From Nitrospirota bacterium (lineage in GTDB: Bacteria; Nitrospirota; Nitrospiria; Nitrospirales; Nitrospiraceae): a DNA stretch of 64,000 nt. The stretch is from NCBI GenBank assembly GCA_026387665.1, contig JAPLLG010000007.1:124001-188000 (forward strand), in the 5' to 3' direction. Each line of letters begins with the position of its first letter. Position 1 is the first letter of the stretch. Shown piece by piece: positions 13,002 through 57,612 of this stretch. Below the pieces are notes generated by a model. That model had not been told where the DNA came from. It saw only the letters and a list, made by a program, of their open reading frames with translations, and did no database searches. The translations under genes were made by a program, and so were the position numbers.

Positions 13002-13127
13002 CGGGATGCTCAAAATGGTCGTCCAGCAAGGCCGCAGGCGAGGCACATACCGGAGGCGTACCCTCGGGGGTACGTTGAGGATTGTGTCGAGCCGAGAACG
13101 ACGTTGGCGGCCATTTTCAGCATCCCG
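13002..13127 (-). repeat. R1 palindromic element, copy 2
   Basis: The ends CGGGATGCT and AGCATCCCG pair exactly. The central GTACCCTCGGGGGTAC hairpin and the CACA/TGTG mid-arms are retained. It fills the space between trxB and thiI and ends eight bases before the thiI ATG, so the thiI mRNA lacks an obvious Shine-Dalgarno outside it. Confidence 0.85.
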
Positions 13128-15116: not shown

Positions 15117-15245
15117 GCAGGATGCTCAAAATGACTGTCCAGCGAGGCCGCAGCCGATGAAAGCACCGGAGGCGTACCCTCCAGGGGTACGTTGAGGATG
15201 CTTTCAAGGTGAGAACGAAGCTGGCGGTCATTTTCAGCATCCTGC
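15117..15245 (-). repeat. R1 palindromic element, copy 3
   Basis: The ends GCAGGATGCT/AGCATCCTGC, mid-arms GAAAGCA/TGCTTTC and the GTACCCTCCAGGGGTAC hairpin all pair. Unusually, it lies between two divergent genes, where their promoters would be expected. Confidence 0.85.
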
Positions 15246-16727: not shown

Positions 16728-16853
16728 GCAGGATACTCAAAAGGGCCGTCCAGCAAGGCCGGAGGCGAATCAAAACCGGAGGCGTACCCTCGGGGGTACG
16801 TTGAGGATTTCGATGAGTCGAGAACGATGCTGGCGGACGTTTTCAGCATCCTG
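16728..16853 (-). repeat. R1 palindromic element, copy 4
   Basis: The ends GCAGGATACT and AGCATCCTG pair apart from one position; the central GTACCCTCGGGGGTAC hairpin is intact. It lies between queG and the sigma-54 activator gene, 25 bp before the activator ATG. Confidence 0.85.
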
Positions 16854-35248: not shown

Positions 35249-35332
35249 GTTTTCAGCCAGTCCGGCTGCCTGACAGAGGCACAGCCATCCGCATCGCAAT
35301 CAATTCAACTTCTACAGATGATGGAGTCTCCC

Positions 35333-36328
35333 ATGGTCGACTATCAGGATTTCGCTGCTAAAGCCTTGCGCGACGAGACGCTGACGAGAAACGAATGCCA
35401 GGCCGTGCTCGACACTCCCGATGAACGATTGCTGGAACTTCTCCAGGCCGCCTTTACCGTTCGATCCCGCTATTTTGGCAAGACCGTGCGCCTCCAGATG
35501 TTGCAAAACGCCAAGAGCGGAGCCTGCCAGGAAGATTGTCACTACTGCTCACAATCTGCGACCTCCACCGCCCCCATCGAGCGCTACAACCTCTTGCCCC
35601 AAAAGCAGATGATCGACGGAGCCAGACAAGCAGCCGCCTCAAAGGCCCAACGCTATTGCATCGTCATCAGCGGCCGGAGTCCGTTGGATCGGGAAATCGA
35701 CGAAATCGCAGGAGCTGTCCGCTCCATCAAGCAGGAGATTCCGATTCAGATTTGCTGTTCACTGGGCCTCATGAGCGAGCAACAGGCCAAGCGACTGAAG
35801 GAAGCGGGAGTCGATCGGGTGAATCACAACTTGAATACAAGCGAAGCCTTTCATTCCTCCATCTGCAGCACCCACACGTTCCAAGACCGGCTCAACACCA
35901 TCCAGAACGCGCGAGCGGCAGGATTGGAGATCTGCTCCGGCGGGATCGTGGGCATGGGAGAGAAGGACGAGGACCTCATCGACCTAGCCATGGCCCTGAT
36001 CGACGTGAAACCTGACTCGATTCCGCTCAACACGCTCCATCCAGCCACTGGCACGCCGCTGGAGAACTGTGACAATCTGACCCCTCAACGCTGCCTGAAA
36101 GTGCTCTGCCTCTTCAGGTTCCTGCACCCACGCACCGAACTCCGCGTGGCCGGAGGCCGTGAGCATAATCTACGGAGTCTCCAGCCCTTGGCACTCTATC
36201 CAGCCGATTCCATCTTCGTGAACAACTACCTCACAACGCCAGGAGCCCCCGCTCCAGAAGTCTGGGGCATGATCGAAGATCTCGGCTTTAAAATTGAAGT
36301 CGAGCATCAGCAACCGGTCGCAAAGTAG
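35333..36328 (+). CDS. bioB: Biotin synthase
   Basis: 331 aa from the ATG with GGAG six bases upstream; ATGs 15 and 12 bp earlier are alternatives. Radical SAM enzyme inserting sulfur into dethiobiotin. The 4Fe-4S motif CQEDCHYCSQS (CxxxCxxC), RYCIVISGR, NHNLNTS, GGIVGMGE, and the C-terminal GGREHNLRSLQPLALYPADSIFVNNYLTTPG are present. The last 33 residues are encoded a second time after the downstream TA genes. Other bio genes are not adjacent. Confidence 0.95.
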   Translation: MVDYQDFAAKALRDETLTRNECQAVLDTPDERLLELLQAAFTVRSRYFGKTVRLQMLQNAKSGACQEDCHYCSQSATSTAPIERYNLLPQKQMIDGARQAAASKAQRYCIVISGRSPLDREIDEIAGAVRSIKQEIPIQICCSLGLMSEQQAKRLKEAGVDRVNHNLNTSEAFHSSICSTHTFQDRLNTIQNARAAGLEICSGGIVGMGEKDEDLIDLAMALIDVKPDSIPLNTLHPATGTPLENCDNLTPQRCLKVLCLFRFLHPRTELRVAGGREHNLRSLQPLALYPADSIFVNNYLTTPGAPAPEVWGMIEDLGFKIEVEHQQPVAK

Positions 36329-49608: not shown

Positions 49609-49732
49609 CAGGCTGCTCAAAAAGCCCGTCAGCAAGGCCGCAGGCGAGTGGAAACCGGAGGCGTACCCTCAGGGGTACGTTGAGGATTTCGATGAGCCGA
49701 GAACGAAGCTGGCGGGATTTTTCAGCAGCCTG
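49609..49732 (-). repeat. R1 palindromic element, copy 9
   Basis: Fills the space between convergent uppP and lspA. Its A-end abuts the lspA stop codon directly (TAG then CAGGCTGCTG on the minus strand). Ends CAGGCTGCT/AGCAGCCTG and the GTACCCTCAGGGGTAC hairpin pair exactly. Confidence 0.9.
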
Positions 49733-53166: not shown

Positions 53167-53289
53167 CGGGATCGTCAAAAACGTCTTCCAGCAAGGCCGC
53201 AGCGAGCGAAAGGCCGAGGCGTACCCGGAGGGTACGTTGAGGGTCTGAGCGACGCGAGAACGAAGCTGAAGGCGTTTTTCACGATCCCG
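53167..53289 (-). repeat. R1 palindromic element, copy 10
   Basis: A-end abuts the nadA stop codon directly on the minus strand (TAG then CGGGATCGTG). The ends CGGGATCGT and ACGATCCCG pair exactly although their sequence differs at several positions from the usual CAGGCTGCT/AGCAGCCTG. Confidence 0.88.
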
Positions 53290-54526: not shown

Positions 54527-54555
54527 TTGACAACGGAGGGGGCCAGCGATACGAT
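54527..54555 (+). promoter_or_regulatory. Sigma-70 promoter of the TPP riboswitch-thiC unit
   Basis: TTGACA at 54527-54532 and TACGAT at 54550-54555 with a 17-bp spacer. Start of transcription would be near 54562, exactly at the riboswitch. Confidence 0.75.
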
Positions 54556-54562
54556 TCTTGCT

Positions 54563-54652
54563 CGAAGCTAGGGGAGCCACGTGGCTGAGAGTCCGCCCGA
54601 ACGGACGACCCTCAGAACCTGACCTGGGTAATACCAGCGTAGGGAAGCGAGA
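54563..54652 (+). promoter_or_regulatory. TPP (THI-box) riboswitch
   Basis: Contains the conserved TPP aptamer words in order: AGGGGAGCC, CTGAGA, an arm with CCCGAACGG, ACCCTCAGAACCTGACCTGG, and GGTAATACCAGCGTAGGGAAG. It is followed by a terminator and thiC, so thiamine pyrophosphate should switch off thiC. Confidence 0.95.
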
Positions 54653-54678
54653 ACAACCAGACACTGTTGGTCTCTCTG

Positions 54679-54708
54679 CCGCACCCCTTTTCTCGGTGCG
54701 GTTTTTTT
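54679..54708 (+). terminator. Riboswitch expression-platform terminator
   Basis: CCGCACC and GGTGCGG pair with a 9-base loop, then seven T residues. It is just downstream of the TPP aptamer and 49 bp before the thiC ATG, as in transcriptional TPP riboswitches. Confidence 0.85.
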
Positions 54709-54723
54709 ATTTCTGATTACTAA

Positions 54724-56670
<1,947 letters not shown>

Positions 56671-56791
56671 GACTGTTCAAAATGGCTTTCCGGCAAGGCC
56701 GCAGGCGAGACCAAACCGGAGGCGTACCCTCAGGGGTACGTTGAGGATTTGGTAGAGCCGAGAACGAAGCCGGAAGTCATTTTCAGCAGTC
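56671..56791 (-). repeat. R1 palindromic element, copy 11
   Basis: Starts at the base after the thiC stop and ends 17 bases before thi4. The mid-arms ACCAAA/TTTGGT pair perfectly and differ from every other copy; the central GTACCCTCAGGGGTAC hairpin is intact. Ends GACTGTT/CAGCAGTC pair partly. Confidence 0.85.
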
Positions 56792-56808
56792 GACGAAGGG
56801 AAGACACA

Positions 56809-57612
56809 ATGGCAAAGCCACCAACACCAGCCCCACTACGAGAAAAAGATATTACCCGTCACATCGCGCGGGAATATTACAAAGAATTCGATCAGCTCAT
56901 CGAAAGCGATGTGATCATCGTCGGGGCCGGGCCGTCCGGCTTGATCTGCGCCCATGACCTGGCTGAAATGGGATTCAAGACGGTCGTCGTCGAACAGAGC
57001 CTCGCCCTGGGCGGCGGCTTCTGGTCTGGCGGCTATCTCATGAACAAGGCCACGATCTGCGAACCGGCCAATGAAATCCTTGAAGAAATCGGCGTGCCCT
57101 GCAAGAAGATTACGGAATGCGCAGGCATGTACATGGTCGATCCCCCTCATGCCACCGGCGCGTTGATCGCCGCGGCCTATCGAGGCGGGGCGAAGATCAT
57201 GAACCTCACGCGAGTGGTGGATCTCATCATCCGGCGCGACGGGATCCTCGAAGGGGTGGTGGTCAACAGCACGACGGCAGAAATGGCAGGCCATGACATC
57301 ATCCATGTGGACCCGATCGCCCTCGAAAGCAAAATCGTGGTGGATGCGACAGGCCATGATGCCATCGTCGTGGAACTCTTGCATAAGCGGAATCTCCACA
57401 AGGCAGTCCCCGGCAACGGAGCCATGTGGGTCGCGCAATCGGAACAGGAAATCATGGACCGGACCGGCGAAGTCTACCCCAACTGTTTCGTAATCGGGTT
57501 GGCCGTGGCGGCAGTCTACGGCACGCCCCGCATGGGTCCGGCCTTCGGCTCGATGTTACTCTCAGGGCGCTACGGGGCTGAGCTGATTAAGAAGAAACTG
57601 AAACAAGAGTAG
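56809..57612 (+). CDS. thi4: Thi4-family thiazole synthase (probable sulfide-using, His-type)
   Basis: 267 aa. FAD/NAD-binding VIIVGAGPSGLICAHDL (GxGxxG at 39-44). The protein resembles Thi4, which makes the thiazole half of thiamine from NAD and glycine. The residue that is the sulfur-donating Cys in yeast Thi4 (TQSCMDP) aligns with His166 (DIIHVDP), as in archaeal enzymes that use free sulfide catalytically. ATG at 56809. It follows thiC after R1 copy 11; no ThiG or ThiS was seen. Confidence 0.9.
   Translation: MAKPPTPAPLREKDITRHIAREYYKEFDQLIESDVIIVGAGPSGLICAHDLAEMGFKTVVVEQSLALGGGFWSGGYLMNKATICEPANEILEEIGVPCKKITECAGMYMVDPPHATGALIAAAYRGGAKIMNLTRVVDLIIRRDGILEGVVVNSTTAEMAGHDIIHVDPIALESKIVVDATGHDAIVVELLHKRNLHKAVPGNGAMWVAQSEQEIMDRTGEVYPNCFVIGLAVAAVYGTPRMGPAFGSMLLSGRYGAELIKKKLKQE

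Follow-up and report, generated by a model that had tools for sequence, protein, structure and literature searches.

A putatively non-suicide THI4 thiazole synthase encoded with thiC behind a TPP riboswitch in the Nitrospiria

Introduction

How does a THI4-family thiazole synthase obtain its sulfur when histidine stands where suicide enzymes carry their donor cysteine, and to which branch of the family does such an enzyme belong? Plant THI4 destroys itself in each reaction, and a catalytic substitute for it is an engineering goal (PMC8454699). That non-Cys THI4s exist is already known, and one from a congener of the organism studied here has already been tested. The question arises again in a stretch of 64,000 nucleotides from a Nitrospirota contig (hereafter the window), where an earlier note, made from the letters alone, had pointed to a His-type thi4 next to a riboswitch-driven thiC. 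Here we follow that observation through the window, the source genome (a Nitrospira, 2.64 Mb, 99.8% complete) and 61 related genomes drawn from the genus, family and order, together with sequences from elsewhere in the class.

Results

The ATG-initiated open reading frame at 56809..57612 on the forward strand encodes 267 residues and is a full-length Thi4 of the ADP-thiazole synthase family, long-loop His type. It scores 249.3 bits against TIGR00292 (cut-off 148.3 bits), covering profile positions 1-254 of 254, and 214 bits against PF01946, and its predicted model (pLDDT 95.6) superposes on all eight of the eight solved THI4 entries with Z of 33-39 and rmsd of 1.1-1.8 Å. The identity proposed in the earlier note is borne out by these scores and by the fit of the model, and assignment of the gene to the THI4 family of thiazole synthases is confirmed. 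By structure, the closest PDB entries are methanogen THI4s, in a database that holds no prokaryotic Cys-type structure to compete with them; by sequence, the nearest named records are Nitrospira MAGs. Comparison with relatives gave dN/dS (omega) values of 0.01-0.06, and thi4 is under strong purifying selection. A longer reading frame from a TTG start at 56749 was rejected, as the extension consists of repeat DNA.

Upstream of thi4, on the same strand, a TPP riboswitch aptamer (RF00059) occupies 54560..54662 (cmscan 72.1 bits, E 3.1e-12) and is the sole one in the genome. Just 5' of it lies a sigma70-like promoter, TTGACA-17-TACGAT, at 54527..54555 (+), which matches the consensus at 10 of 12 positions in a scan where about one site of such quality is expected by chance. 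Behind the aptamer, at 54678..54709 (+), an intrinsic terminator with an 8-bp stem, a 9-nt loop and a U run folds at -13.9 kcal/mol (z -4.9); no shuffled sequence folds as well, and the 9-nt loop places it outside a consensus scan. This terminator is probably the expression platform of the riboswitch. It is followed by thiC (54757..56670, +), encoding a phosphomethylpyrimidine synthase of 637 residues (NF006763 1064.6 bits, TIGR00190 717 bits).

In the Nitrospirales thiC adjoins thi4 in 47 of 49 loci, and the two exceptions sit close to the end of a contig; in the other families of the class it lies by thi4 in all ten loci, nine times in tandem and once divergently. A TPP riboswitch was found in 56 of the 61 related genomes, each of which, with a single exception, has just one, and in the eight genomes measured it sits approximately 2.0-2.2 kb 5' of thi4. 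The gap between thiC and thi4 holds a repeat copy here and in near relatives but is only 12 nt in several others; because of this 12-nt gap and the conserved neighbourhood, thiC and thi4 very likely form an operon. The order riboswitch, thiC, thi4 that had been read from the window is thus supported by the RF00059 and thiC scores and kept across order and class.

The repeat copy in the gap (56676..56795, +) is a palindromic interspersed element of about 115 bp, found by blastn and capable of forming a hairpin of -58.9 kcal/mol. Its core is GGCGTACCCTCAGGGGTACG. Including this copy the window holds 12 blastn matches, others being, for example, at 13010-13122, 15126-15239, 16737-16848, 49632-49728 and 53175-53278.

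Residue 166 of Thi4 (codon 57304..57306, +) is histidine. It aligns with the donor Cys of Arabidopsis Thi1 (QSCMDP), with Met158 of the Thermovibrio enzyme and with the His of the methanogen enzymes, and the donor Cys is absent, with His instead, from all 93 sequences sampled (83 of 83 from the order and 10 of 10 from the rest of the class); the claim that His166 stands in place of the donor Cys is upheld by these alignments. Two residues further on, Asp168 (57310..57312, +) and, beyond it, His183 (57355..57357, +) are metal ligands by homology with Asp160 and His175 of T. ammonificans THI4 (alignment; PMC8454699). Asp168, His183, Glu62 and Arg241 are invariant in our alignments; the same paper assigns metal ligation to the Asp and His and substrate contact to the Glu and Arg. 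In the Haloferax Cys-type Thi4, exchange of Cys for Ala abolishes function (PMC4215014). His166 itself is no evidence of mechanism, since PMC8454699 reports that exchange of the residue at the donor position of T. ammonificans THI4 has no effect. The only cysteine conserved across the class is Cys47, with Cys98 mostly kept.

The earlier note had likened the enzyme to archaeal His-type THI4s. By descent this likeness is not supported. In the Thi4s of the order and class eight residues separate the positions of Glu158 and His166, the same number as in Cys-types, whereas almost all members of a short-loop clade, methanogen and Thermovibrio enzymes included, have five. The nearest relatives outside the class, at 47-52% identity, are Cys-types from Planctomycetota, Dadabacteria, Nitrososphaerota and others. 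In an unrooted tree from which the loop was left out, the class groups with the Cys-types (98/98), and the short-loop His clade stands separate and excludes the class (100/99). Alignment columns, counted in a way that does not depend on the root, agree: 24 are common to the class and the Cys-types only, 7 to the class and the short-loop clade only, and 6 to the Cys-types and the short-loop clade only.

Whether the class lies within the Cys-types or beside them is a finer matter. The Cys-types do not come together as a single clade in any bootstrap tree, but an AU test on the careful tree does not strictly reject such a clade (p=0.078). An earlier AU test on a quick tree, now superseded by the careful one, did not reject it either and pointed the opposite way. 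Taking both tests together, nesting of the class Thi4s inside the Cys-types is favoured, not proven. Given the p of 0.078, the His could instead be a retained older state, and the unrooted tree could accommodate both a His that replaced Cys and an older His with the long loop already present. One class member (L209) reads MPKGTAHVDP at this site, between LPREITCVDP of Cys-types and GHDIIHVDP of Nitrospira.

The earlier note had also seen neither ThiG nor ThiS. For the window this stands; for the genome it does not, as a whole-genome search located a thiS-thiG-thiE cluster on another contig (C8), with an intact ThiG (377 bits) adjoined by ThiS and ThiE, and a second thiE on contig C3. The search for thiG, thiS, thiF and thiH that the note had proposed therefore has a mixed outcome: thiG, thiS and two MoeB/ThiF-like activating enzymes are present, and no ThiH scores above cut-off. 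ThiG was found in 51 of the 61 related genomes and full-length Thi4 in all but about five; at least one relative, G013, has ThiG and no full-length Thi4 match, while G008, G058 and G059, each 98-99% complete, have Thi4 and no ThiG match. With ThiG in the same genome and in so many relatives, Thi4 is not the only thiazole enzyme, and the view of it as the one route to thiazole is not supported.

The ThiG route is itself unusual. In none of the 61 genomes does a ThiO or a ThiH exceed either curated cut-off. The single ThiH-like protein of the source genome (55 bits; window positions 35318-36328) is BioB. A canonical ThiO is ruled out throughout the 61 genomes, a handful of relatives having other DAO-family proteins far below the cut-off. 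Judged by the known enzymes, the route apparently has no source of glycine imine (dehydroglycine). Nor does ThiS end in GG: 16 residues follow GGG in this genome, and a tail of 1 to 16 or more residues, just one in some, was present in 20 of 20 genomes read, so that the carrier would need trimming before use. Our literature search on ThiS tails cleaved by JAMM proteases returned nothing useful. We read the thiSG-thiE locus as a second, unregulated and perhaps incomplete thiazole route. The stop codon of thiS (L011:7979-8239, contig C8) lies inside the start of thiG; the tails were compared over ThiG loci L072-L090.

The two activating enzymes, both MoeB, are encoded in a cluster on contig C2 (L071:7313-12354). 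Its other members are a cysteine synthase (CysK), a threonine synthase, a MoaD/CysO-like carrier whose last residues are AGG, and a JAMM protease resembling desampylases; the set is suggestive of a sulfur module of the CysO-Mec type.

Discussion

We consider it probable that the Thi4 of this locus is a non-suicide enzyme drawing its sulfur from outside, encoded in a thiC-thi4 operon under riboswitch control, its activity being putative. We propose that at low TPP transcription would pass the terminator behind the riboswitch, that ThiC would then make the pyrimidine, and that Thi4, with a metal bound by Asp168 and His183, would assemble NAD and glycine into the adenylated thiazole. Since there is no donor Cys and no other active-site Cys is conserved class-wide, the sulfur would come from outside the protein, presumably as sulfide or persulfide, and an enzyme fed in this manner would be a multiple-turnover one. 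Dependence on sulfide is a reasonable inference from these residues.

Two groups of characterised enzymes frame this proposal. The methanogen and Thermovibrio non-Cys THI4s (PDB 4Y4M, 4Y4N, 6HK1 and 7RK0; PMC8454699) share the fold, the Asp/His ligands, the TIGR00292 match and the lack of a donor Cys, but their loop is three residues shorter and they form a separate clade. Prokaryotic Cys-type THI4s (Haloferax HvThi4, PMC4215014; loci L096-L112) share the loop length, the 24 columns and the position in the tree, and Pro156, as in these enzymes, occurs in most class members from other orders; they differ in having the donor Cys where the whole class sampled has His. Closer still is the THI4 of Nitrospira defluvii, from the same genus, which Joshi et al. 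2021 (PMC8454699) list among non-Cys THI4s and which is very likely an ortholog of the present enzyme. It supplies the sole experimental datum on this genus: in the same paper it rescued E. coli dthiG poorly or not at all. Lack of a metal or of a sulfur partner in that host is one possible cause. This result counts against our proposal, as does the loss of function of the Haloferax Cys-type on exchange of Cys for Ala.

The behaviour of the N. defluvii enzyme also bears on the reading in which most thiazole is made through ThiS-ThiG, the part of Thi4 being minor, or conditional upon circumstances such as low oxygen and high sulfide. Given that ThiG is intact with ThiS and ThiE adjoining, that two MoeB/ThiF-like enzymes are encoded, that ThiG is widespread in the relatives and present in G013, which has no full-length Thi4 match, and that the congener's Thi4 did little or nothing in E. 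coli (PMC8454699), this reading has support, and the presence of ThiG means that Thi4 is not provably needed. Against it, the known dehydroglycine sources ThiO and ThiH are both missing, ThiS carries its tail in every genome read, the riboswitch is placed at thiC-thi4 and not at thiSG, and three nearly complete genomes have Thi4 but no ThiG match. On balance we think it unlikely.

We give far less credence to three further readings. That the enzyme belongs to the lineage of the archaeal sulfide-dependent His-type THI4s would account for a His at the same position and for methanogen structures being the closest in a PDB without prokaryotic Cys-type entries; with a loop three residues longer, Cys-types as the closest relatives outside the class, and both tree and shared columns (24 to 7) against it, such descent is very improbable. 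Equally hard to sustain is a suicide enzyme whose donor has moved. Cys84 and Cys226 are invariant in 83 of 83 Nitrospirales sequences and Cys104 is present in 82 of 83, so that each might be thought a replacement, but elsewhere in the class position 84 is Ala, 104 is absent and 226 is Leu or Val, with the same His166; the donor was thus lost without them, and a relocated Cys was rejected as a general answer. Finally, Thi4 might no longer be a thiazole synthase and might act on NAD or a sugar phosphate. Some His-type homologues were formerly called ribose-1,5-bisphosphate isomerases (PMC4215014), and the feeble showing of N. defluvii Thi4 in E. coli (PMC8454699) would fit. The fixed place of the gene in a TPP-controlled thiC operon and the retention of all known ligands speak against another reaction, which we hold to be the least probable of all.

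Returning to a non-suicide Thi4 supplied with external sulfur, what is new is the class-wide His form that belongs with the suicide lineage, and its coexistence with a ThiSG system lacking ThiO and ThiH; in the literature searched we found no paper stating either. Tentatively, and with some doubt, we suggest that the Nitrospiria, on one occasion and within the Cys clade, made a suicide THI4 non-suicide, or else retained a pre-Cys long-loop state, and that this form became fixed in the thiC operon beside ThiSG without ThiO or ThiH. Non-Cys plant THI4s (Joshi et al. 2020, ref. 5 of PMC8454699) reportedly also lost the Cys within a suicide lineage and are putatively catalytic; they are eukaryotic, unlike the Nitrospiria enzyme.

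If this is true, bacteria would offer a natural example of the change that crop engineers seek in plant THI4. The catalytic THI4s tested so far and present in our tree belong to the distant short-loop clade, and a Cys-clade enzyme without Cys, fixed across a class that includes aerobic nitrifiers, would be a closer engineering model. The same reading would also imply either that dehydroglycine comes from a novel source or that two thiazole synthases share the work, and ThiSG without ThiO or ThiH beside Thi4 points to a gap in the thiazole pathway as known, one that can be tested. Outside the class, Thr occupies the donor position of a Coatesbacteria Thi4 (L105:4001-4807) that sits on a long branch next to the Cys-types, perhaps another instance of Cys loss.
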